Source: Sulfuricaulis sp. (lineage in GTDB: Bacteria > Pseudomonadota > Gammaproteobacteria > Acidiferrobacterales > Sulfurifustaceae). From it: 64,000 nucleotides of DNA. The stretch is from assembly GCF_024653915.1 (NCBI RefSeq), contig NZ_JANLGY010000016.1, forward strand, positions 62,001 through 126,000, in the 5' to 3' direction. The notes beneath the pieces were generated by a model. That model saw nothing but the letters and a program-made list of their open reading frames with translations, had not been told where the DNA came from and did not search any database. The first letter of the stretch is position 1, and every line of letters starts with the position of its first letter. Shown here one piece after another: positions 1,953 through 31,310 of the stretch. A program made the translations under genes and the position numbers.

Positions 1953-3131
1953 TTACTTTTTCTTCCTCCGCGCCAAACCCGCCAAGCCCAACAGCCCCGA
2001 GCCAAACAGCCACACCGCCGCCGGCACCGGAACCACCGTGTAATCAGACCAACCCTCGGGGTTGATATAGGTAACTACCCGGCCGGCGTCGGCGCGCAGC
2101 AGAAAGGCAAAGCCGGCAAAGTCATTGGCATGCCAGGTGGCTCCGTCGGTTTCACGAACGTCACCGGCCTGGGTGCCCGGCACATAAGTCTGATCGTCCG
2201 CCACCGTAACGTCTTGCGTTCCAGGATTGAATACCCATGCCCCCAGAGGCACAACCCCCGCCCCCAGGAATGAAACCTTGTTCTGGAAAGCGGAATCGAG
2301 CGAACCGCCCACGCCCGCCACAACCGTGGTGGGATTGGTGTTGTTGCCAACCGCATGCCCTTCGAAGTTCATGTTATAGCCGCTGCCAACATTGGTGACA
2401 TTCACGTAGTAATCGCCATAACTGCGCATGACAAAACCGGGCACGATCTGCGTGGCCGGGGAGCTCGTCTCAGGAGTGCTATCGGTAAAATAGGCGTCAA
2501 AAGCAAAATCGAAGGTCACCTGGCCCGCCATTACCTCCAGCGAGTTCGGGTCGGAGGTCAGGACAGAACCGCACCAACCCTTGGCGTCGGAAATCGCGTA
2601 GGGCTGGAAATTGAGATCGGTATCTACATTCTGCACCGTGATTCCATTGTTGTAGAGAAAATCGTCGTAAAACCCGAAGCTCATATTGGCTTTGGGAACG
2701 TAGTAGTTCCCCGCCGTGTCAATCTGCATGTTGTTGAACGTGCTGGTGGGCGTCGTGTAGGCCATCTTGTAAAAATTGACGTTCCCGTCCATGTTGGCGT
2801 TCGTATAGGTCGTGAACCCGATGTACGGCTTCACGTTTCTGGTCGGGTCGGGCGTGAGCCAGTCCGGCGCAACCGTGGTCACCGTCTGTACCTGGCCGAC
2901 GCTCGATGAATTAAAACCGGACCCCACCTGAAAATCATTGACCCCGACACCCGTCGGGCCGGTATAACCCCAGTCATTGAATGTGATGGTTCCGGTCGCG
3001 CCGGTGGTGGTCGTATCAACGGTATGCAACCAGGTATTTGATCCCGTGTAGCTATAGGTTTCCGCCAGAGCCGTCTGCATGAAACCACTGAGCGCCACCC
3101 CGACCGCCACAACCAGTAATTTTTTATCCAC
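1953..3131 (-). CDS. VPVPA/PEP-CTERM sorted exported protein, 392 aa
   Basis: A signal peptide (residues 1-23, ending TALA) is followed by about 340 residues rich in Thr, Asn, Gly and Tyr. The C-terminal tail is VPVPAAVWLFGSGLLG with RRKKK. The start is GTG at 3131 because GGAGGAG lies 4-5 bases upstream and the encoded signal peptide begins there (MDKKLLVVAVG). The sorting tail is almost identical to those of the proteins at 362-910 and 3443-4297, while the mature regions differ. It is probably a surface or matrix protein processed by the local exosortase; its specific function is unknown. Confidence 0.88.
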   Translation of the reverse strand: MDKKLLVVAVGVALSGFMQTALAETYSYTGSNTWLHTVDTTTTGATGTITFNDWGYTGPTGVGVNDFQVGSGFNSSSVGQVQTVTTVAPDWLTPDPTRNVKPYIGFTTYTNANMDGNVNFYKMAYTTPTSTFNNMQIDTAGNYYVPKANMSFGFYDDFLYNNGITVQNVDTDLNFQPYAISDAKGWCGSVLTSDPNSLEVMAGQVTFDFAFDAYFTDSTPETSSPATQIVPGFVMRSYGDYYVNVTNVGSGYNMNFEGHAVGNNTNPTTVVAGVGGSLDSAFQNKVSFLGAGVVPLGAWVFNPGTQDVTVADDQTYVPGTQAGDVRETDGATWHANDFAGFAFLLRADAGRVVTYINPEGWSDYTVVPVPAAVWLFGSGLLGLAGLARRKKK

Positions 3132-3442: not shown

Positions 3443-4297
3443 TTAGGCCTTCTTCTTGCGGCGGGCGATGCCCACCAGGCCGAGCAGACCGGAGCCGAAC
3501 AGCCAGACAGCGGCCGGAACCGGAACTGCGGCGGTGTACACGCCTGTTCCCTGCTGATGCCACTGGGCGGTCCAACCCGCGAAGCCGGCACTACCCGGAT
3601 CTTCGGAAACGTCAATCACCTCGTTCGCGAACATCTCGAAGTCGAACGTGGTGATGGTACCCACGGTCACGGCGTTGGTGATGTTGGCGTAGAAGGTGAT
3701 GCCGCCGCTCGCCTGACCCAGCGGGAACCAGGTGCCGGCCCACTGCGCTTCCAGTACCGGAGCGAAGATGAACGAAGTCATGGAACCATTCGTCGGGACG
3801 CCGCCAACATAGGTGGCGTTGCCGTAGGCCGTATCTGCCAGAGATCCGACGACCGGGGCCAGGAAGTTAAAGTCCGACCCGAAGAAAACGGCTGGCTGTT
3901 GCCACGAGTCATTACTATTAGCACCTGGAGCAGCCGAGCCGGCGAAACCGGTGGCGCCAGGGTTGTCCATGGCCAGGTTGTTGTCCAGGGGGAACGTGAG
4001 GGTGTTGGTATTCACACCCGTCATATCTCCACCATCGTTAAAAGTGTAAGACTCGCCACCGACGAGTGTGTCCTTCTGCAACGGGAAACCGCCGCCGAGC
4101 GCAACATTAGTCGTATTACACATGCGGAATTCATTTCCGGCGGTCCAGGCAATAGCGCTGCAGTTGCCAGTCATCGCGGTCGCTGCAGTGCCGTCGACGA
4201 ACGTCAGCGTGAGTGCCGCGTTGGCTGCCGGTACTGCCGCGCCAAAAGCCAGACCCAGCGTTGCCGCCAAGGCTGTTTTTTTCATTGAAATCTTCAT
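3443..4297 (-). CDS. VPVPA/PEP-CTERM sorted exported protein, 284 aa, paralogue of the 14.6-16.1 kb protein
   Basis: A signal peptide (residues 1-27, ending ANA) is followed by a mature domain beginning LTLTFVDGTAATA. The C-terminal tail is VPVPAAVWLFGSGLLG with RRKKKA. About 240 N-terminal residues are closely matched by the protein at 14555-16084, with long stretches identical at the DNA level (about 3560-3770 against 15380-15590). The two differ completely in their C-terminal sorting tails. GGAGGAG precedes the ATG. It is likely matured by the exosortase at 29727-31310. The mature domain is unassigned; a surface protein is inferred. Confidence 0.9.
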   Translation of the reverse strand: MKISMKKTALAATLGLAFGAAVPAANAALTLTFVDGTAATAMTGNCSAIAWTAGNEFRMCNTTNVALGGGFPLQKDTLVGGESYTFNDGGDMTGVNTNTLTFPLDNNLAMDNPGATGFAGSAAPGANSNDSWQQPAVFFGSDFNFLAPVVGSLADTAYGNATYVGGVPTNGSMTSFIFAPVLEAQWAGTWFPLGQASGGITFYANITNAVTVGTITTFDFEMFANEVIDVSEDPGSAGFAGWTAQWHQQGTGVYTAAVPVPAAVWLFGSGLLGLVGIARRKKKA

Positions 4298-9947: not shown

Positions 9948-12900
9948 TTACGGATTCGCTGTCATGCTGAAGTTCACCGTGATGTTGCTGCCGTTGATGG
10001 TCGGGAAGGCCGAGGCGTTGTTATAGCCGGATTTTATCGCGACGACATAGTAGCAATCATTATTAAGACCGCTGATGGAATAATTGCCGTTCGCATCCGT
10101 GGTGCGGTACTGAGGTGGGCTGGTATTACAGGCATATTCCTTGATGGAAACCCCGGATAAAGGCAAACCGGTGGCCGCGGCGGTGACGCGGCCGGACATG
10201 GTATAGGGGCCGATCGGAAACAAGGTGATATCGAAAAGGAGGTTCGCGCCATTGATCCGAGGGAAAGCGGTATAGGTGTAATAACCTGTTTTAATGATGC
10301 GGAGATAATAATCGGTACCATCCAGTCCGGCAAAAGCATAGCCCCCGTTCTGATTGGTCGTGGCGGTTTTCCATCCAAAGTTAAGCGAGACCGTGGCGCT
10401 CACGCCGAGGCCGGTGACGGGGTTAGTTACCGTGCCGGACAAGGTATAGCCAACGAAGGTCAATGAGAAGTTCCGAGTAACGTTGGCGCCATTAATACTG
10501 ATGGGGGCACCCTGGCTTTGGTACCCGACCCTACTCACTTGGATGTAATAATCGCCGTCCTGCAACCAGGGTACTGTGTAGTAGCCGTTGGAGTCGGTAG
10601 TTACTCCCGGAACAGCGCCGAAATTAATGCTGATGGCCGCTCCTGAAACAGGCTGACCAGTGGATACGCGAGTTACCATTCCGGACAAGGTACGGTAGTT
10701 GATGGTTGGGGGTAGGGTCACTTGTACCGGTGTAGTTTTATCCACGTTGGTACCGTCGCCTAATTGACCAACAGTGTTCCACCCCCACGCCCACAAGGTG
10801 CTGTCCGACTTCAGAGCTTCGGTGTGCGCACCTCCTGCCGCAACCGAAGCCCAAGTATTCTCAAATCCTATCTGAACAGGGGTGGACTTAATTACGGTGG
10901 TGCCGTCACCCAACTGGCCTGCATTGTTATACCCCCATGCCCACAAGGTCCCATCCGACTTCAGGGCTACAGTGAAGTTTGCTCCTGCCGCAACCGAGGC
11001 CCAGGTATTCCCTGTTCCGATCTGGACCGGGGTGTTCTTAACTTCGAAGCTGCCGTTATCTAAGAAAAAAATCCCCCACCCCCATAGAGCCCCGTCCGAC
11101 TTCAGGGCCACGGTGTGGCCGTTTCCCGCTGCAATTGAAACCCATGTGTTCGCTCCTGCTCCGACCTGGACAGGGGCGTTCTTGTCGACATAGGAAGGGT
11201 CGCCCTCGCCTAACGCGCCACCAGCACTATTTCCCCAAGCCCATATCGTCCCGTCCGACTTCAGGGCCACGGTGTAATAATATCCTACCGCAATCGAGAC
11301 CCAGGTATTCCCGGTTCCAATCTGGACAGGGGTGTTCTTATCGGTTTTGGTGCCGTCGCCTAATTGGCCTTCAGCGTTATTCCCCCACGCCCACAAGGTC
11401 CCATCCGACTTCAGGGCCATGGTATGAAGTGTTCCAACCCCAATCGACACCCAAGTATTCCCGGTGCCGATCTGGACAGGGGCGTTCTTATCAACATTTG
11501 TGCCGTCGCCTAATTGACCGTAATTGTTCTGCCCCCACGCCCACAAGGTTCCATCTGACTTCAGGGCGACGTTATGAAAACCCCCTCCCGCGGCGATCGA
11601 GGCCCATGTATTTTCAAATCCTATCCGTACAGGCGCGTACTTTCTGACAGTGGTGCCGTCGCCTAATTGACCGTAATTGTTCTGCCCCCACGCCCACAAG
11701 GTCCCGTCTGATTTCAAGGCTACGGTATGAGCATATCCTGGCTTGATTTGTGAGAGGACCGCTTGTGAAGGAAGTAACGTTGTCGCGTTAGCCGCGTTTG
11801 TATAGAGCGAGGGCGCACCGGCGTTGTACGCTCGCACCCGATAGTAGTAATTCGTGTTCTGCAGTAACTCCATACTCGCGTAGCTCGTCACATTCGCGCC
11901 GACGGCGGCGATCTGTACGTAAGTGCCCCCGGCGCCGGTCTTCCTTTCAATCGCAAACCGGGTCTCGTTGTTGGAATTGTCCACCCAGGAAAGATTGATC
12001 CGAGTCGCGGAAACCGCGGTAGCCGTGAGACCCGAGGGTGCAGTGGGTACAGCAGCAGTGTAGCTTGCCGTTACCGTTGTATTCGCATTCATCGTAATCG
12101 TGCACGTACCCGTTCCGCTGCACCCCGCCCCGGACCATCCGCTAAAGGATGAACCGGGATCCGGCGTGGCCGTCAGGGTTACTACCGTGCCCAGCGCATA
12201 GGACGCCGTGCAGAGAGCACGACAGTTTATTCCAGCGCTGGTCACGGTTCCCGCTCCCGTGCCCGCTTTGTTTACAGTGAGTTGTGTATCGACTCCCGTA
12301 CCGCTGAGCGGCAGGTCTAATACGGGGATCTGAGGATCGCTTGAGGGAATGTTTACGTTTGTACCTAGTAGCCCCAGCGAAGTCGGAGAAAATGATACCT
12401 GTATGGTGCAACTGCCAGACGGCGCGATGACGTGGTTAGAGCAATTGTCGACACTTTTTACAAATGCATAGGAGCCAGCTGAGGTAATCGTGCCTAGGGA
12501 CAGGTTTACCGCCCCTCTATTAGAAACTGAGAAAGTTTGCGAAGCGGAACTCCCCGCAACAACATTGCCAAAATCATATGCATACGGAGAAATTGTTATC
12601 ATCCGTCCTTCCATGGCCGCGCCGATATTCACGCGCGGTTTTGTGATCCCGCTCTTCGGATCGGTGATGGGATCTCCGTCGTTCACCAGACGCCGCGTGA
12701 GTTCCGTCTTGCTGAAAAATAGTCCGGTCGTGGCTTTGGCGTAGCTCTGTAAGACCGCCCCGGCGCCGGCCGCGTAGGGCGAGGCGGCCGAGGTGCCGCC
12801 GAAAGATGGCAGATACGCTTGGTAGAGATACGTGGTGTAGGCACTGTTGCTCGGCGCCAGGATATCCAGGAAGTTGGCGCTGTTGGAATAACAGGTCACC

Positions 12901-13982
12901 TGATCAGGCGCTGTTACCGGATCGGTGCAGACACTCCAGTTGCCGGAACCAATATTCGCATCGTACACGGCGCCCACGGAAAGTGAATTCGATACGCAGG
13001 CCGGCGCGCTGAGGGCGTTCGTGAACCCGTCGTTCCCGGCCGCGGAAAAAAGCGTGATGCCATTGGCGGCGGCGTTGTTGGCCGCGGCCGCCAGCGAGGG
13101 CTTCGAGACATCGCAAGCTGCGGTGTACGAACCACCGCCAAAACTGGTGTTGATAATCAGGATCGGGTTGACGGGGTTGTCGTTCTTATGGGTGACGGCC
13201 CAGTCCCAAGCGGCGGCGATGATCGAATCGCTCGACGAACCTGCGCAGCCGGCAACGATCTTCAGGGCGTAGAGTTTCGCGTTGTAGGCCACGCCGCCGA
13301 TATAGTCACCAAACGTTGCCAGGGCGCCGGCGGCGATCCCGGCGACGGAGGTGCCGTGCCCATGGCAGTCACTCGGATCGGCGTCGTTGTCGCCGAAGTC
13401 ATAACCTCCGATCACCTTGGTGTTGGGGAAGGCAGCGCCGCCGAGCATGGGGTGCGTGTAGTCGATGCCGGTGTCGACGATGGCAATCGATACGCCGGAA
13501 CCGTTGTAGGTCGACCGGGTTCCAGAGCCGTTCATCAGCGGAATACCCTGGGCCAACTGGGCCGTGACGATCTGATCTTCTTCGATGAACTCAACCTCGG
13601 GCATGGCCGCGAGCGCCTCGAGGCCGGCGCGGCTGACTCTGCCGGCAAAGCCGTTGATGTTGTCGAAGACGTGCTTGGAGGTGAAGTGGGCGCGGTTGAG
13701 CTTTCCCAGGACCGCGTTTTGGTTTTGATGAATCTGCGCGTGCAGCGCCTGCATTTCCGCTGGTTTGTCGGCGTTGATCTTGCCGACGTAGTTTTTATGT
13801 CCGCTCAGAAGCACGATGACATCGACCGTCGGCTCGCCGCGGTCCAACCGGTCGAAGAGTGCGGGCTGGAGGATTTTTGCCCGAGCGGCATCGTCCAGGG
13901 GTTGGGCCGTGGTGCTGCTGACCGCGACTAGATTTATGGCCAGTGCGATGACAATGGCAATAATGCGAAGTTTATTTTTCAT
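9948..13982 (-). CDS. Giant secreted subtilase (S8) with RCC1 repeats, 1344 aa
   Basis: Order of domains: signal peptide (1-27); inhibitor-I9-like propeptide (about 40-140); S8 peptidase (about 150-460) with Asp170 (IVDTGID), His209 (HGHGTSVAG), Asn317 (SAAGND) and Ser398 (GGTSAASPYAAG); an ASPM/Hydin-like Ig segment; an InlB-type B repeat (TVTSAG...GWSGAGCSG); a fibronectin III domain; seven RCC1 propeller repeats with core ALKSDGTLWAWG (about 745-1085); and three carboxypeptidase-regulatory-like beta domains to the end. All catalytic residues are present, so it should be an active extracellular protease. There is no CTERM tail. GGAG precedes the ATG. The RCC1 region is a near-identical 150-165-bp tandem repeat in DNA and may vary in copy number. 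Confidence 0.9.
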   Translation of the reverse strand: MKNKLRIIAIVIALAINLVAVSSTTAQPLDDAARAKILQPALFDRLDRGEPTVDVIVLLSGHKNYVGKINADKPAEMQALHAQIHQNQNAVLGKLNRAHFTSKHVFDNINGFAGRVSRAGLEALAAMPEVEFIEEDQIVTAQLAQGIPLMNGSGTRSTYNGSGVSIAIVDTGIDYTHPMLGGAAFPNTKVIGGYDFGDNDADPSDCHGHGTSVAGIAAGALATFGDYIGGVAYNAKLYALKIVAGCAGSSSDSIIAAAWDWAVTHKNDNPVNPILIINTSFGGGSYTAACDVSKPSLAAAANNAAANGITLFSAAGNDGFTNALSAPACVSNSLSVGAVYDANIGSGNWSVCTDPVTAPDQVTCYSNSANFLDILAPSNSAYTTYLYQAYLPSFGGTSAASPYAAGAGAVLQSYAKATTGLFFSKTELTRRLVNDGDPITDPKSGITKPRVNIGAAMEGRMITISPYAYDFGNVVAGSSASQTFSVSNRGAVNLSLGTITSAGSYAFVKSVDNCSNHVIAPSGSCTIQVSFSPTSLGLLGTNVNIPSSDPQIPVLDLPLSGTGVDTQLTVNKAGTGAGTVTSAGINCRALCTASYALGTVVTLTATPDPGSSFSGWSGAGCSGTGTCTITMNANTTVTASYTAAVPTAPSGLTATAVSATRINLSWVDNSNNETRFAIERKTGAGGTYVQIAAVGANVTSYASMELLQNTNYYYRVRAYNAGAPSLYTNAANATTLLPSQAVLSQIKPGYAHTVALKSDGTLWAWGQNNYGQLGDGTTVRKYAPVRIGFENTWASIAAGGGFHNVALKSDGTLWAWGQNNYGQLGDGTNVDKNAPVQIGTGNTWVSIGVGTLHTMALKSDGTLWAWGNNAEGQLGDGTKTDKNTPVQIGTGNTWVSIAVGYYYTVALKSDGTIWAWGNSAGGALGEGDPSYVDKNAPVQVGAGANTWVSIAAGNGHTVALKSDGALWGWGIFFLDNGSFEVKNTPVQIGTGNTWASVAAGANFTVALKSDGTLWAWGYNNAGQLGDGTTVIKSTPVQIGFENTWASVAAGGAHTEALKSDSTLWAWGWNTVGQLGDGTNVDKTTPVQVTLPPTINYRTLSGMVTRVSTGQPVSGAAISINFGAVPGVTTDSNGYYTVPWLQDGDYYIQVSRVGYQSQGAPISINGANVTRNFSLTFVGYTLSGTVTNPVTGLGVSATVSLNFGWKTATTNQNGGYAFAGLDGTDYYLRIIKTGYYTYTAFPRINGANLLFDITLFPIGPYTMSGRVTAAATGLPLSGVSIKEYACNTSPPQYRTTDANGNYSISGLNNDCYYVVAIKSGYNNASAFPTINGSNITVNFSMTANP

Positions 13983-14554: not shown

Positions 14555-16084
14555 TCAGTGATTGCGACGGCGGCGCCAGGCCAACCAGCCGAAACTGCCG
14601 AGCAACATGGCCAGCAAGGTTGGGTCGAACTTGGCGCGCGGGTTGATGGCGCAGCCGCTGCCGAGCGGGTCGGTTTTAAGCGGGACGAGTGTAGATGTTG
14701 TTAGCGCCACTGTGGTAAACGACCATGTCGCATCCGCTGCCAGTGCATTTATTCCCGACGAATCCAGGGCCGTCGCCGCAGCCACTGTCACCGTGTATTG
14801 CGTATCATTCGTAAGGGGTGATGATGGTGTGAACGTAAAGGTCGTGTTGTCGGTGGTCGCGACAGTACCGCTCACCGAAGAACTGTCCGAGGTCTTCACA
14901 ACCGTGATTGAATTCGCGGCGGTGAGCAACATTGGCTCACTAAACGTAACTGCAATCGTCGTAGATACGGATACACCCGTGGCGCCATCAGAGGGGGATT
15001 GGGTGCTAATTGTTGGTGCTGTATTATCCGCGCCTGCTGCAGTGATAAAAGTCTTGTCCGCGGGCAGTGTTATGTCATTGCCCGCCACATCCTCGGGGCC
15101 GGAGTTGAATGTGACCGTGTAGGTCGTGGAACCCGTGAGAGCACCGGAAGTTATCGGGAAACTGAATATAGTATCGTTGTTGCTCGCTGTCGGTGGTCCA
15201 ACCGTTACTCCTCCTATACTGATAGACCCGAAGACAACTGTGGAGGTATCCATCGGTCTGCTAAAAGCGACTTGATATTTAATGATATTAGTGCCTACAC
15301 CAGTTGCCGCATGGGCTGGGCTGGTATTGGCCACGCTGGGGTTCGCGGGAACCGTATAAACACCGCTACCCTGCATATGCCACTGGGCGGTCCAACCCGC
15401 GAAGCCGGCACTACCCGGATCTTCGGAAACGTCAATCACCTCGTTCGCGAACATCTCGAAGTCGAACGTGGTGGTATTGCCCACGGTCACGGCGTTGGTG
15501 ATGTTGGCGTAGAAGGTGATGCCGCCGCTCGCCTGACCCAGCGGGAACCAGGTGCCAGCCCACTGCGCTTCCAGCACCGGCGCTTTGATGAACGGAACCT
15601 GGGTGCCATTCGTCGGGGTGCCGCCAATATACCTGGCGGTGCTGTAAGCCGTACCTGCCAGAGAACCGGATACCGGGGCCAGGAAGTTAAAGTCCGACCC
15701 GAAGAAGCCGGCTGGCTGTTGCCACGAATCGTTCGTGCCGGCAGTCGGCGCCGCGGAGCCTGGATGGCTTGCGGCTCCGGGGTTGCCCGGGGTGCCGGTG
15801 ACAGCGGTCATCACGTTCGTATCGTCAAAGCTGAAGGTTTCGCCGCCGATGATTGTGTCCTTGTGCAACGGGAAACCACCGCCGAGCGCAATATTAGTCG
15901 TGTTACACATGCGGAATTCGGCTTCGGCAGTCCAGGCAATAGCGCTGCAGTTGCCAGCGATCGCGGTCGCTGCAGTGCCGTTGACGAATGTCAGCGTGAG
16001 CCCCGCATTGGCCACCGGTACCGCTGCGCCAAAAGCCAGACCCAGGCTCGCCGCGAAGACCGTTTTTTTCATGGAAAATTTCAT
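14555..16084 (-). CDS. Exported protein with two Ig-like domains and a JDVT-CTERM-like sorting tail, 509 aa
   Basis: Residues 1-27 are a signal peptide. Residues 28-250 are a close paralogue of the VPVPA-tailed protein at 3443-4297. Then come two SbsA/Big_5 Ig-like domains (SPAHAATGVGTNI..., SPSDGATGVSVST...). The tail has GSGCAINPRAKFDPTL, a hydrophobic helix and RRRRNH. A Cys followed by FDPTL and a helix fits my recollection of the JDVT-CTERM signal, processed by a CPBP-type glutamic protease (MrtJ) rather than an exosortase. A candidate MrtJ is encoded at 18266-18799. GGAGGAG precedes the ATG. It lies 46 bp after the porin gene and is probably co-transcribed with it. Confidence 0.82.
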   Translation of the reverse strand: MKFSMKKTVFAASLGLAFGAAVPVANAGLTLTFVNGTAATAIAGNCSAIAWTAEAEFRMCNTTNIALGGGFPLHKDTIIGGETFSFDDTNVMTAVTGTPGNPGAASHPGSAAPTAGTNDSWQQPAGFFGSDFNFLAPVSGSLAGTAYSTARYIGGTPTNGTQVPFIKAPVLEAQWAGTWFPLGQASGGITFYANITNAVTVGNTTTFDFEMFANEVIDVSEDPGSAGFAGWTAQWHMQGSGVYTVPANPSVANTSPAHAATGVGTNIIKYQVAFSRPMDTSTVVFGSISIGGVTVGPPTASNNDTIFSFPITSGALTGSTTYTVTFNSGPEDVAGNDITLPADKTFITAAGADNTAPTISTQSPSDGATGVSVSTTIAVTFSEPMLLTAANSITVVKTSDSSSVSGTVATTDNTTFTFTPSSPLTNDTQYTVTVAAATALDSSGINALAADATWSFTTVALTTSTLVPLKTDPLGSGCAINPRAKFDPTLLAMLLGSFGWLAWRRRRNH

Positions 16085-16130
16085 TGTATTACTCCTCCAA
16101 AATCATTCGTAAATTCAAAGCATGCCTGAA

Positions 16131-17471
16131 TCAGAAGCGCAGGCCATAGGCAAAGCTGAGCGACGTCGCGGCCATGGCGATACAGGCATTCTCCTGGTCA
16201 TAAGGGTAAGGCGAGAATGCCGTGGGCCCGCAAATGGTGTTCTTGAAGGCATGCATGAAAGTGAACGTGAAGTCACTGTCCTTGTCCATCGCCTTGGTGA
16301 ATCCGGCGGTGACGTGCTTCTCGGTGGTAGCCGGGGCGAGCATGTTGAACAATACCTCATCTCTCTGGATCGGCGTTTTGCCGTAATTCAACCCGCCGCG
16401 GACCGTCAAATCTTTGTTATATTTGTATTCGACGCCAATTTTGTACACGATCTGATTTCTCCAACCGAAACCGAGCCCGAGATCGCCGCCCGTCCCGCAG
16501 AGCTCTCTGTTTCCAGAGACGTTCAGCCCCCCCGTACAACTGGGGAAGAACTTCGCGGAGTCATTCGCCAGAGGACCGGGGTTGCCGATGGAATCCACGT
16601 CATTCCACATGATGCGCTGGATGTCAGCGACGACCTTGGTCTTTGGGGTCATTTGCAAAGACATGCCCACCGCATAGCTCTCCGGGATGTCGAACTCGCC
16701 ATGATTGGCAAAGAGCCCGGTATAACGGTTGAATTTCTGCATCTCGACCCGGGGGGCATATACCAGACCAAGATGGAATTTCTCATTCAAATAGGTACCA
16801 AGCCAACCGAGCCGGTAACCCCAGCCAAAACTCCAGTCGTAACCGTTGTTGGTAAGCTTCGATCTATCAGACGAATAACCGCGCGAGCCAAAATCCTCCA
16901 GGCCGAAGGCCCGGAAGGTCTGCATGGCGATGGAAAGCGACGCGCCAAGACTATTATGCTCGTCGATTCTGTAAGCGATGCTCGGCAACATCTGCATCTG
17001 CATCACGAATACACCGACACGGTCATAAGCATTGCCGCTCTTGTTGAAGAAGTTCTGCGGATAATTGGTTCCCGCCCCGGCGCCGATGACGGCCATGCCC
17101 ATGGCGAAGGGCGTCTCGGGGGAGGAGAGCACGGCACCAAGCGAGGGAATGGGATAGAAATCATCTTTACTGCGAGAATCCGCCGGGAACTCGGAACTCT
17201 CATGGCTGACCCTGCGTGGCGGCCGGAACAGTTCGATTGTCAAATCCATACGCGCCTCCCCCACTGCCGTCATCAGCGCCGGGTTGTAGGCGGCGGCCAT
17301 GCCGTCCACGGGATTCGCCACGCCGGCGCCGCCAAGCGATGTTGCCTTGGCGCCGTAACCGATCATCCACATGCCGTTAGTAGCATGGGCGGGAATAGAT
17401 ACCGTCATTGCCGCCAATACCAGACAGGTTGCCCGCCATACCATTTTTGCGGCTGATGCCGTTTCGTTCAT
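16131..17471 (-). CDS. FadL/OmpP1/TodX-family outer-membrane channel, 446 aa
   Basis: A signal peptide ends at AHA, followed directly by TNGMWMIGYGAKATSLGGAGVA, the hallmark N-terminal hatch of the FadL family. The rest alternates aromatic beta strands and ends in a terminal Phe (AYGLRF), as outer-membrane barrels do. The family imports long-chain fatty acids or other hydrophobic compounds. I start at ATG 17471 because GGAGGAG lies just upstream; a 20-residue upstream extension is basic and unlike a signal peptide. Likely first gene of a two-gene unit with the JDVT-tailed protein. Confidence 0.85.
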   Translation of the reverse strand: MNETASAAKMVWRATCLVLAAMTVSIPAHATNGMWMIGYGAKATSLGGAGVANPVDGMAAAYNPALMTAVGEARMDLTIELFRPPRRVSHESSEFPADSRSKDDFYPIPSLGAVLSSPETPFAMGMAVIGAGAGTNYPQNFFNKSGNAYDRVGVFVMQMQMLPSIAYRIDEHNSLGASLSIAMQTFRAFGLEDFGSRGYSSDRSKLTNNGYDWSFGWGYRLGWLGTYLNEKFHLGLVYAPRVEMQKFNRYTGLFANHGEFDIPESYAVGMSLQMTPKTKVVADIQRIMWNDVDSIGNPGPLANDSAKFFPSCTGGLNVSGNRELCGTGGDLGLGFGWRNQIVYKIGVEYKYNKDLTVRGGLNYGKTPIQRDEVLFNMLAPATTEKHVTAGFTKAMDKDSDFTFTFMHAFKNTICGPTAFSPYPYDQENACIAMAATSLSFAYGLRF

Positions 17472-18265
17472 TATTACTCTCCTCCTGATCCTAGAAAAAT
17501 ACACGCATGTAAATCTGTTCTTGTTTTCCATTATGTAACGCGGCTCTTGCCATGTTCAGAATGGACAATCTCTACAAGTCCTTGTAAAGATTTTTTCGCT
17601 TGATGGGGGAAATTACGTTAGCGGAATAATACCAATGACATCGTCTTATTTTAATGACGATAATATCGTTATCAGTATTAGAAAATTCCCTACGTTCGCA
17701 GATATGGCTTCATGGCCATATCCCTGGTGAAACCCCCTACCCATGCGACTTAAATTCACCTACATGGTGCACTTTGAAATTTATAATTGTCAAGCTGGTT
17801 ATACTGCTTATATATGGTGTTCCCTCCGGGGGATTTTTTTGCCAAGACAACATCAAAAATCTGTAAGCAAACTCTTACACATGCAGCCAGGCGGCTATCC
17901 TGCAATGGTGCCTGATCGTCTTATTCAGCTTTATAATATACATTTCTCCAACGGCCAGCATTTGTGCGCTGCGGCCTGTGCCATGAATCCGGCTCCATTG
18001 TTGGCGGCAGGAATGGCGGTTGACAAACCATGCATTTAGCGAATGACCTCGCGGCCGTGACCGGGACGGGAGAAACCGTCCGCAGGATACGAATCGACCG
18101 TCACGGGGGTTCCTGATAACCTCCAAATCCCGGGTGGACCAACCCTGCACCTCCCCCGCTCACCACCGCCAAACGCAGGGCACGCTGTCACGTTTGCGTT
18201 ATCAACGCTGATCGCCATTGCGGAACGGAAAACCAGCACAGAGTTGATTTGTTGAACAGTTAAAC
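17472..18265. other. Divergent intergenic region with a 14-bp palindrome
   Basis: About 790 bp between the minus-strand porin and the plus-strand protease. A perfect palindrome TACAAGTCCTTGTA lies at 17573-17586, about 100 bp upstream of the porin start, and could be an operator. A CCGTGAC...GTCACGG inverted repeat lies at about 18055-18104. I looked for a c-di-GMP-I (GEMM) riboswitch and saw none. Short frames here lack support. Confidence 0.45.
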
Positions 18266-18799
18266 ATGCGAGTTTTCCCATGGATCTGCGGCGCTGTCCT
18301 CGTGGTTGGCGCCGTTTTTTCGTATCCGGGGCGTGATTACGTCCTGGTCGGCCTGATGTTGTTTCTTCCGTTCTTCGATCGCGGCTGGAAGATTCCGGCC
18401 CTGCCCCGCTCCCGGTCACATCGCCTGATTTGGGCCGGCTTGCTGATTGCCGGCATGGCGCTGCTGCTCTGGCAGCCGTCGAAAATGTCTTTTGCGTTTT
18501 CCGCGCTTTTGACGGCGGCCTTGCCCGAGGAATGGTTTTTTCGCGCCTACTTCATGACGCAAATCGGACAAGGCTGGCATGCAAATCTGGTCGCCTCGGT
18601 CCTGTTTTCACTCCTGCATGGGCTGACCCATAACTGGTATACCGCCCTGCTGGTGCTCGTGCCGTCCCTTTTCTACGGCTGGCTGTACCAGCGCACACGC
18701 GATCTGCCGTTGCTGGTGTTGGCGCATGCCCTGTCCAATCTTGTTTATGTCATGTTCCTGGCCGGTTTCGTGGCGACTTGGGTGCCCGATTTGCGCTAA
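18266..18799 (+). CDS. mrtJ: CPBP-family glutamic intramembrane protease, MrtJ-like (JDVT-CTERM system)
   Basis: A 177-residue polytopic membrane protein with the three CPBP/ABI motifs: PEEWFFRAY (EExxxR), FSLLHGLTH (FxxxH) and HALSN (HxxxN). In the JDVT-CTERM system, as I recall it, a small dedicated CPBP protease processes a single target protein per genome. A protein with a matching tail is encoded 2.2 kb away at 14555-16084. The size, motif set and proximity support the assignment, but a generic CPBP protease is not excluded. No strong ribosome site is seen before the ATG. The export lipoprotein gene starts 48 bp downstream. Confidence 0.75.
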   Translation: MRVFPWICGAVLVVGAVFSYPGRDYVLVGLMLFLPFFDRGWKIPALPRSRSHRLIWAGLLIAGMALLLWQPSKMSFAFSALLTAALPEEWFFRAYFMTQIGQGWHANLVASVLFSLLHGLTHNWYTALLVLVPSLFYGWLYQRTRDLPLLVLAHALSNLVYVMFLAGFVATWVPDLR

Positions 18800-18846
18800 A
18801 ATATACCGGCATTTCAACCCAGATCATGAAGAAAGCGAGCAGATCC

Positions 18847-19545
18847 ATGCAGAGACTCAAAAAACTGTTTCAGTCCATTCTGATAGTGGCGGTCCTGGCT
18901 TCCTGCGGCACTACCCCGCCCGCCGTCGCCGAATCGGATGCGAATGACGCTAAGACATCCGCGCCGGAAGCAGCTACGGCGGACATGAAGGATACGGCCA
19001 CGGTCCCTGTATCCAATACCGGCACGACACCCGTAAACGAGGAAAAAGTCGCTGCTCCCCGTGATGTCTACATCATCCAGCCCGGCGATATTCTTGCCAT
19101 TTCTGTGTGGAAAGAGAAAGATCTGCAGGGCGAGTTTGCAGTCCGCCCCGATGGCGGGATTAATTTCCCTCTCGCGGGCGATATCGTTGTTGCCGGTAAA
19201 ACCATCGAGCAAATACAAGTGGATATTGCCGCCAAGCTGATCAAGTATGTCCCCGATTCGGTTGTCACAGCCAGCGTCAAGCAAAGCCAGGGCAACAAGA
19301 TTTATGTCGTCGGCAAAGTAAACAAGCCGGGCGAATTTGTCTCTAACCGTACCATTGACGTCATGCAGGCGCTCAGCATGGCGGGTGGGCCGAATCCTTA
19401 TGCCTCAGTAAACAAAATAAAGATTATCCGTCGAGTTAACGGCGAGCAGAAAATATTTTATTTCAAATATTCGCGGGTGGAGAAAGGTGAAGACCTGGAA
19501 CAGAACATCATCCTGCAAGGCGGCGATATTGTCGTCGTGCCGTAA
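18847..19545 (+). CDS. Wza-type polysaccharide export lipoprotein, 232 aa
   Basis: An N-terminal lipoprotein signal (MQRLKKLFQSILIVAVLASC) is followed by a low-complexity linker. Then comes a Poly_export domain (YIIQPGDILAISVWKEKDLQGEFAVRPDGGINFPLAGDI) and an SLBB domain (IYVVGKVNKPGEFV...MQALSMAGG). Such proteins form the outer-membrane channel for capsule or EPS. I start at ATG 18847; an in-frame ATG at 18826 adds seven residues and is also possible. No Wzc/Wzb-type partner is in the window, so export also needs genes elsewhere. It is probably transcribed with the upstream protease gene. Confidence 0.85.
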   Translation: MQRLKKLFQSILIVAVLASCGTTPPAVAESDANDAKTSAPEAATADMKDTATVPVSNTGTTPVNEEKVAAPRDVYIIQPGDILAISVWKEKDLQGEFAVRPDGGINFPLAGDIVVAGKTIEQIQVDIAAKLIKYVPDSVVTASVKQSQGNKIYVVGKVNKPGEFVSNRTIDVMQALSMAGGPNPYASVNKIKIIRRVNGEQKIFYFKYSRVEKGEDLEQNIILQGGDIVVVP

Positions 19546-29726: not shown

Positions 29727-31310
29727 TTAGTCCGGAATATATTCCTTCAGCCTCCCTACAACCTCCCCGGAAAACTCCGCGAGCTGCTTGTCCGCTGCGA
29801 CCACATCCCCGTCCGGCGGAATTATCGTGGTCAAACGCACCAAGGCGCCGTCGGTGCGGTTGCGCGTCAATGCATCCCAGAATAAATACCACTTCACCAT
29901 GTACTCATTGGTAATCACCCGACCGCGCTGCTGGAACCAGTAATACACCAGCTGCTTATGCTCTCCCTTCTGGATCACGAGCCGGTTAACCCGGAGAGGC
30001 GCATCACCGAATTTAACCCCATCCACTAGATGTGGAGTTAAGGACATAATCCGCCAACCCCCGCCGGGTATACAAGTGCGCGGTGAATGCGCCGACTCGC
30101 CTTTCTGCTGCGAGGCGTAATAGGCTACATAAAAATTAACCAACTGCCGGTCGTTGTTCGCAAAATCCGCGAGAATATAATCGTCAAACTTGAGCGCATC
30201 GATATAAATCTGCTCCATGCGCTCGCTCTTTCCCTGCCATCCCTCCAGTTTCATCGGGAAATGGGAGAAATCCTGCCTTGGCGGCGAGATCTCGACCCGC
30301 TGCGGCATGGCAACCGATGTTATTGCTGCGACGACCATCAGGAGCGCGGCGCCCACATAAGGCTTGGGGATTGGGCGATATTGAGCCTGGGCATCCTTCG
30401 GTGTCGGTGCGGGAAACTCCAGACCGAAAACTTCCTGCAGAGGGCGATGGTCTTTCCCTATCCTGATCAGAACCCACATTTCAACGACAAGCACCGCGGT
30501 GCAGGCCATAAACACCACCCACCCCTCGAAATCGTGGAGGAATCCCTCGGCCATCTTTGGGCCCCAATACTCCACCAAGACACCGATGACGCCGATGCGA
30601 AAACTGTTCATCAGAACAGTGATGGGAATCGTTGACAGAAACAGTACAGCGCGCTTCCAGAACGCCGCCTTGAAGAAATAGGCGGATATGAACCCAAGCG
30701 TCATGAGAGGAAACAAGTAACGCAGCCCGCTGCAGGCCTCGACGACTTGTAATTTATAAATTCCCAGGTCGATAACGTTGCCTTCCAGAAAAACACTGAT
30801 GCCGAATAACCGGATCACCCAGACCCCAATCTCAGATGAGATCAACTGCAACTGCGCGGAGAGTTCGGTCAGGAGGAATGGCGGCAGGGGTATCATGAAC
30901 AACAGAAACAGCAACGGCACCCGAACCAGCCGGAACCCCCGCCAGCCCGTGAAGGCCAGCACAAGGCCGGCGATCACAGTCAGGAAAGAATATTGGATGA
31001 CCAGATAGATGGTGCTCAGATTTCCAATGACAAAAAGTCCGATGCCGAGCAGGGTAATGAACGCCCCGGCCCACGAACCCGAAAAGGGTATTCGTTCGAG
31101 GCTATCTTTCCTCTGCCATATCAGGAAGAGCGTGATAACCGGGATAAGGTAACCGTAGCTGTATTCTTCCTTGGTATTCCACATCCGCACGAGATCCTTC
31201 AGCCCGTCGAAATAGACAAACCCAAGCAGTGCGGCCATGAATATGAACGAGCCCCATATCCATGGGGTTTCTTTCCACACTGTCAGCTTCTCTCCTACAG
31301 TCGAAGTCAT
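29727..31310 (-). CDS. xrtD: Exosortase fused to EpsI domain (XrtD-like, VPLPA-CTERM type), 527 aa
   Basis: Residues 1-295 form the polytopic exosortase, with catalytic Cys193 (VEACSGLRYL), Arg238 (NSFRIG) and the conserved His259 (LHDFEGW). Residues about 310-527 form an EpsI domain with HSPRTCIPGGGW. Exosortases cleave and transfer CTERM-tailed proteins at the inner-membrane outer face. A single-chain exosortase plus EpsI, with VPVPA-type substrates at 362-910, 1953-3131 and 3443-4297, fits the VPLPA-specific XrtD group; the alternative is an XrtA-type fusion. GAGG precedes the ATG. Next on this strand (upstream) is the EPS gene run. Confidence 0.88.
   Translation of the reverse strand: MTSTVGEKLTVWKETPWIWGSFIFMAALLGFVYFDGLKDLVRMWNTKEEYSYGYLIPVITLFLIWQRKDSLERIPFSGSWAGAFITLLGIGLFVIGNLSTIYLVIQYSFLTVIAGLVLAFTGWRGFRLVRVPLLFLLFMIPLPPFLLTELSAQLQLISSEIGVWVIRLFGISVFLEGNVIDLGIYKLQVVEACSGLRYLFPLMTLGFISAYFFKAAFWKRAVLFLSTIPITVLMNSFRIGVIGVLVEYWGPKMAEGFLHDFEGWVVFMACTAVLVVEMWVLIRIGKDHRPLQEVFGLEFPAPTPKDAQAQYRPIPKPYVGAALLMVVAAITSVAMPQRVEISPPRQDFSHFPMKLEGWQGKSERMEQIYIDALKFDDYILADFANNDRQLVNFYVAYYASQQKGESAHSPRTCIPGGGWRIMSLTPHLVDGVKFGDAPLRVNRLVIQKGEHKQLVYYWFQQRGRVITNEYMVKWYLFWDALTRNRTDGALVRLTTIIPPDGDVVAADKQLAEFSGEVVGRLKEYIPD

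Follow-up and report, generated by a model that had tools for sequence, protein, structure and literature searches.

Within a 64,000-nucleotide stretch of the genome of Sulfuricaulis sp. (RefSeq assembly GCF_024653915.1, contig NZ_JANLGY010000016.1, positions 62,001 to 126,000 of the forward strand; hereafter the window), a secreted protein ending in a JDVT-CTERM sorting tail lies beside an outer-membrane barrel of the FadL/TodX family and a small CPBP intramembrane protease. From the comparison of this locus with its relatives, we think it rather probable that the three genes form a FadL-linked cassette, made of a barrel, a cysteine-tailed secreted protein and a small CPBP protease, in which one enzyme sorts two types of tail. 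In the relatives, the protein in the same slot ends in a different cysteine tail with the pattern GCSxSxxPVNxxxRADWW, for which we coined the label DWW; since the slot protein is DWW-tailed in the relatives and JDVT-tailed in the window, one enzyme would accept both. Genomes, loci and contigs are cited below by our G, L and C numbers. The genes of the window locus are the following.

14555..16084, minus strand (read 16084 -> 14555): target, 509 aa; NF033191 39.1 bits, Big_5 112.6 bits
16131..17531, minus strand: FadL/TodX-family outer-membrane barrel of the cassette subfamily, 46 bp upstream of the target and on the same strand
18266..18799, plus strand: small CPBP intramembrane protease of the DWW clade, 177 aa, divergent from the FadL gene; PF02517 61.9 bits

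The target and its JDVT-CTERM tail

The target begins with a signal peptide (judged by eye), has a passenger that extends to about residue 244, and contains a Big_5 Ig-like region matched in two stretches. Its C-terminus reads GSGCAINPRAKFDPTL, then a helix, then RRRRNH. The sequence-only reading had described this tail as not of the exosortase type, and both the tail and its coordinates are borne out, with no match of the target to the PEP-CTERM models at E ≤ 1. The JDVT-CTERM model NF033191 covers residues 475-507 at E 5e-10, and its score lies above the cut-off of 27 (44.2 bits in the whole-genome search), as had been proposed for this gene without mention of its minus strand. In the 2.73-Mb genome the target is the only match to NF033191, so that the feared abundance of such tails is not seen, and none of 14 control genomes has a match; the E-value and these two counts exclude a chance match. 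The Gly-Cys, the FDPT-like motif 8 residues on, the helix and the Arg-rich end are all present. The same spacing of 8 is found in 22 of 34 other JDVT tails and a spacing of 9 in 7 of the 34; a spacing of 6 in one tail is an artefact of the pattern and becomes 9 by hand. Judged by its sequence, the tail is a genuine JDVT-CTERM.

The idea of one target per genome holds as a common state, found in 29 of the 42 class-sample genomes with JDVT over the cut-off, and fails as a rule, 13 of the 42 having two to six. Thus G045, a genome of the same order, encodes three JDVT proteins (L004, L006, L007) together with an MrtJ over its cut-off. Directly behind the target, at 9948-13982, lies a large S8 subtilase with RCC1 repeats and Ig-like and carboxypeptidase-regulatory-like domains, which matches none of the sorting-tail models. 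Orthology with an S8-like gene in G011 was considered and is not supported, there being no tblastn match at E ≤ 1e-5.

The protease and its clade

The protease carries EEWFFR (residues 88-93), FSLLH (114-118) and HALSN (154-158), in agreement with the EExxxR, FxxxH and HxxxN motifs first claimed for it, and the motif residues are invariant across 15 relatives. It is Rce1-like by its PF02517 score (cut-off 22.4) and is the only PF02517 match at E ≤ 0.1 in the genome, which is 99.8% complete; a second CPBP gene, as a candidate for the true MrtJ, was sought, and the genome searches found none. The predicted structure (pLDDT 91.5, seven helices) points to an MmRce1-like fold. VIA-align matched 166 residues to MmRce1 (4cad) with Z 11.9 and rmsd 4.1, and gave Z 12.8 for SpdC (6u0o) and 4.7 for the next non-CPBP row, with the caveat that for helical models values below about 13 may be nothing unusual. 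A plain Foldseek search of the model against the PDB gave no match at E ≤ 0.001, and a PDB sequence search with a CPBP profile gave none at E ≤ 1. A defence role found no match in PADLOC.

MrtJ (NF033192), the enzyme expected beside a JDVT-CTERM protein, is the best single NCBIfam match of the protease. The target lies within 4.3 kb of the protease, and JDVT and MrtJ genes lie within 5 kb of each other in 18 of the 40 class genomes that have both, the window's included. These observations would fit an ordinary JDVT-CTERM/MrtJ pair in which the protease is a diverged MrtJ, a reading that we regard as unlikely. The MrtJ score of 57.8 bits (59.1 in the genome search) stays below the cut-off of 75, so the assignment to MrtJ does not stand, whereas 43 of 49 JDVT genomes (some with JDVT matches below the cut-off) have a protease over it. 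Among the 49, the protease falls below the MrtJ cut-off in the window genome and in G138, and G005, G046, G181 and G390 gave no MrtJ match at E ≤ 1e-8. Three of these four genomes are just 71-76% complete.

The phylogeny also separates the window protease from MrtJ. It belongs to a 17-row clade (99/95) that long branches separate from the MrtJ clade (97/94), in which 31 MrtJ rows are joined by the three proteases of G177, G387 and G211. The tree holds 55 rows (53 different), L065 and L145 having been dropped because they offered no motif-bearing open reading frame (ORF), and two rows were flagged as long branches, one of which (G419) falls in the window's clade. The nearest relative of the protease (G011) is matched better by MrtP (71.8 bits, cut-off 250) than by MrtJ (59.0 bits), and none of the seven order relatives with the same protease has a JDVT match. 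On sequence and tree position, the window protease is not MrtJ and belongs to a separate, supported clade. The myxosortase core model NF040914 gives it 56.1 bits, below the cut-off of 100; this cut-off has no discriminating power here, because none of 35 searched genomes passes it, MrtJ genomes included.

The locus thus resembles the JDVT-CTERM/MrtJ system (NF033191, NF033192) in its tail motif, its spacing of 8, the single JDVT protein in the genome and the small CPBP enzyme nearby, and differs from it in a protease of another clade that scores below the cut-off. The arrangement differs as well. PMC11980579 describes the MrtJ neighbourhood as MrtJ plus one JDVT protein and nothing more; in the window, a FadL gene lies between the protease and JDVT genes, and these two are divergent.

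The FadL barrel and the DWW tail in relatives

Among 57 genomes of the same order, the protease clade was found in 8 (E < 1e-50), with weak matches in three more. In all seven order relatives, FadL is followed by a gene for a secreted protein with the other cysteine tail, for example SGGCSISSLPVNPSERADWWLLAGFVAWLGVVRRR; this DWW gene directly precedes the protease gene in six, and in G011 other genes intervene. A contig scan with the protease alignment returned 12 loci, namely five order genomes already counted and seven more distant loci, five of them metagenome-assembled genomes (MAGs), with proteases of 39-50% identity. The distant loci were collected via the enzyme together with a loose tail pattern, and in 7/7 the DWW gene is immediately upstream of the protease.

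The two sets of tails recognize each other. A model of six distant tails recovers all seven order tails and four further ones among 3,641 ORFs (19 loci and the whole window); the rest of its matches are the tails it was built from, L106, which is a near-copy, and a second L104 tail gene. The reverse model, built from the order tails, recovers the distant tails. No ORF of the window matches either model at E ≤ 0.01; the target has no DWW tail, and two DWW matches lie elsewhere in its genome. The 8 of 57 order genomes that encode the protease are also the ones with DWW tails at E < 1e-6; G007 adds a partial match at 0.008. Because seven of these eight genomes were in the tail model, the independent part of this result consists of the window genome's two matches, the extra matches in G011 and G016, and the lack of matches in the other genomes. 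Among the 369 genomes of the class sample, at least 10 have DWW tails (E ≤ 1e-4), at least 5 have the protease (E ≤ 1e-15) and four have both; these counts are lower bounds, since only part of the first-look candidates was scored in many genomes (e.g. 39 found, 19 scored). From the Cys to the Asp position the spacing is 13 in 26/26 DWW-type tails (Glu or Ala in a few) versus 8 in the window tail, a uniformity that is partly built in because the set was partly collected with the model.

DWW is seemingly an undescribed cysteine tail. Six of the seven order DWW targets have no NCBIfam family at E ≤ 10 and the seventh has two chance-level matches; with the six distant DWW targets and the window genome's two DWW-like proteins included, the NCBIfam scan covered 15 DWW proteins, none of which scores over the cut-off of a sorting-signal model, and Pfam gave no sorting signal at E ≤ 0.001 for the 10 proteins submitted to it. 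One of the window genome's two, a choice-of-anchor U protein on contig C17 (L092/L157), has a tail between the DWW and JDVT types, with a sub-cut-off JDVT match of 18.3 bits. At distances of 2 and 3 kb from its gene are two FadL-family genes, which belong to another group. The second (contig C1, L094), like a DWW-like protein of G011 (L096), matches cyclophilin-type peptidyl-prolyl isomerase in Pfam, and both are perhaps surface-displayed isomerases. In G016, a DWW-like tail protein (L095) is cut by a contig end. The label "dedicated", which the sequence-only reading gave to the protease, is doubtful, because the genome's two DWW-like tails have no other CPBP candidate.

The barrel recurs with the DWW gene. 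It belongs to the FadL family by sequence (Toluene_X 83.3 bits; profile A6 versus TodX, 3brz, E 2e-27) and reaches 32.1 bits with the PorV family, whose cut-off is 90; its predicted model is poor (mean pLDDT 66.6). A hidden Markov model (HMM) built from nine cassette FadL genes, the window's included, gives 694 bits for the barrel, itself one of the nine, and 347-737 bits for cassette FadLs of at least 200 aa, against 127-158 for two other FadLs of the window genome. Likewise, the cassette FadLs form one group (100/100) relative to these two, the sole outsiders in the tree. We examined 26 DWW-type loci, of which five are cut by contig ends (L106, L107, G249, the third tail gene of G138 and the second of G016). 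In 18 of the 21 assessable loci the DWW gene has a same-strand FadL gene as its immediate neighbour: the seven of the order, L101, L103, L104, L105 and L108, and G136, G138, G177, G211, G260 and G387, which belong to other families. Ten of these 18 FadL genes were outside the HMM. FadL comes first in 17 of the 18, the order being reversed in G260. As a control, none of 33 JDVT loci has FadL beside the JDVT gene, each with at least 1.9 kb upstream of the target frame (700 bp being required); the control omits five of 38 loci cut by contig ends (L166, L167, L172, L173, L200) and does not include G366, with its linked JDVT-MrtJ. G136 has both kinds of tail, and of its two genes tested the DWW gene adjoins FadL and the JDVT gene does not. 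In G211 (L153), a DWW-type target has cassette-type FadL genes on both sides.

The window therefore appears as a hybrid, its JDVT target occupying the DWW slot 46 bp behind a cassette FadL. The passenger of the target is also found on a second protein of the window.

3443..4297, minus strand: paralogue with the same passenger and a VPLPA-CTERM tail; TIGR03370 30.6 bits, cut-off 25.35

Target residues 1-244 are 75% identical to this paralogue, which lies 10 kb away, in amino acids (255 columns) and 81% in DNA (765 columns), and the match stops just before the VPLPA tail. The window passenger is also homologous to the DWW-type target of the FadL cassette in G211 (33%, E 8e-22); the tail of that target, in which Ala takes the place of Asp, is the weakest class match (E 1.5e-6). 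Judged by sequence, one sorting tail seems to have been naturally exchanged for another at the window locus. The FadL-target pair faces the other way with respect to the protease than it does in the order relatives, an inversion that may reflect an assembly error. Inverted repeats were considered as a cause of the inversion and rejected: five pairs of 14-19 nt were found, none flanking the block.

This inversion, together with the two DWW-like proteins elsewhere in the genome, would also suit a protease that serves DWW-like proteins alone, the JDVT tail of the target being an unprocessed membrane anchor. We consider this quite improbable, for the JDVT tail matches its model strongly with all elements kept, and decay would not leave a strong match with every element.

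Several observations weigh against a cassette in which one enzyme sorts both tails. The target and protease genes are divergent with FadL between them, and the combination of a JDVT tail over the cut-off with this protease clade is seen here alone (the distant MAGs were outside the JDVT search), G138 having two sub-cut-off JDVT matches. Three of the 21 assessable DWW-type loci lack a cassette FadL, namely the window genome's two and the second gene of G011, and in G138 neither DWW nor FadL is found in the 19 kb around the protease. The protease relative of G419 lies on a contig end, with no DWW match, and G249 has a DWW-type tail and no myxosortase-type match at E ≤ 1e-8. Five other DWW-type genomes (G136, G260, G177, G211, G387) have MrtJ-clade proteases; this rules out DWW as the exclusive partner of the window's CPBP clade. 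Finally, cleavage of a JDVT tail by this clade is a prediction by analogy.

Neighbouring sorting systems and the proposed mechanism

The target and protease had been placed next to a complete exosortase locus. An exosortase locus does lie beside them, and the neighbourhood includes the following genes.

18778..19545, plus strand: polysaccharide export protein (EpsE/TIGR03027-like), downstream of the protease; TIGR03027 130 bits, cut-off 180
29727..31310, minus strand: exosortase XrtD (VPLPA-CTERM type); TIGR04152 608 bits, cut-off 400

The TTG start listed for the export gene overlaps the protease gene, and its true start is uncertain. The exosortase locus also contains PrsT, PrsR and PrsK, and VPLPA-CTERM proteins are encoded at 362-910, 1953-3131 and 3443-4297. 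The notion of two sorting systems side by side extends beyond the window, since the PEP-CTERM neighbourhood recurs: PrsR and PrsK stand beside the cassette locus in G011 and G016, the distant locus L103 lies near PrsT, PrsR, PrsK and VPLPA-CTERM proteins, and L104 lies near a VPLPA-CTERM protein. This recurrence keeps an exosortase-linked role among the rivals, in which the CPBP protein, like some others, would be part of an exopolysaccharide/exosortase operon and unrelated to cysteine tails; an export-protein homologue also follows the protease in the window and in six of the seven order relatives (not in L082). We hold such a role to be very improbable, given that the immediate upstream neighbour of the protease is the DWW gene in every distant locus and that, of the 10 neighbours scanned in five distant loci, those of L101, L105 and L107 (one each) show none over a PEP-CTERM cut-off. 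Moreover, the protease reaches just 23.7 bits with TIGR03008, the CAAX-related protein of PEP-CTERM systems (cut-off 81.05). The target shares with the PEP-CTERM/exosortase XrtD system a tripartite tail and, in the paralogue, its passenger, and differs in carrying Cys and FDPT.

The closest mechanistic parallel is provided by MYXO-CTERM and the myxosortases MrtX, MrtC and MrtP, which have in common with the cassette an invariant Cys before the helix and Arg-rich end and a CPBP core; the G011 enzyme is matched best by MrtP. The MrtP model, however, spans 354 positions versus about 173-197 aa here, the MYXO-CTERM motif is another one, and the searched genomes hold 1-3 DWW-type tails each, compared with the dozens of MYXO-CTERM proteins that PMC11980579 reports for typical myxobacteria. 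According to that paper, cleavage of MYXO-CTERM by MrtX, with Cys residues required, is experimentally established.

Based on the above comparison, we propose the following mechanism for the FadL-linked cassette. After export through its signal peptide, the target would stay in the inner membrane, held there by its tail helix, and its Gly-Cys would lie immediately beyond the membrane. The next steps are proposed on the model of MYXO-CTERM and MrtX: a lipid would be attached to the Cys, and the CPBP enzyme would cut off the helix and Arg-rich end. So processed, the target could arrive at the surface carrying a C-terminal lipid, and the barrel would be its partner there. The barrel may act as a conduit or an anchor, or it may be a transporter on which the target forms a cap. 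In type IX secretion, PorV is a partner of cargo with a C-terminal signal. The cassette barrel is, like PorV and the FadL/TodX channels, of the FadL family by sequence, whereas the target matches no type IX cargo model in the NCBIfam and Pfam scans. A literature search returned no paper pairing Sulfuricaulis with an exosortase; a search on FadL with PEP-CTERM or exosortase had no FadL among the matches listed, and one on FadL with CPBP yielded nothing relevant, judged by title.

A more far-reaching version of this proposal seems to us possible but rather doubtful. It envisages a separate, so far unnamed cysteine-dependent sorting system, in which the DWW tail is served by a CPBP clade of its own and by a dedicated FadL barrel that either receives or anchors the cleaved, lipidated protein, in the manner of PorV, or is capped by it, in the manner of SusC/D. 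The window would then represent an exchange of DWW for JDVT under the same enzyme, with a passenger that the same locus also encodes with an exosortase-type tail.

The locus bears on the question of which tail features are recognized by CPBP sorting enzymes. A single enzyme clade is faced with two tail motifs that differ in their Cys-to-Asp distance (8 and 13), and the same passenger occurs with a cysteine tail and with an exosortase-type tail within 13 kb; tail specificity is therefore directly testable by swapping. For MYXO-CTERM proteins, PMC11980579 implicates the type II secretion system in arrival at the surface. The recurrent FadL neighbour would be a candidate outer-membrane partner of another kind.

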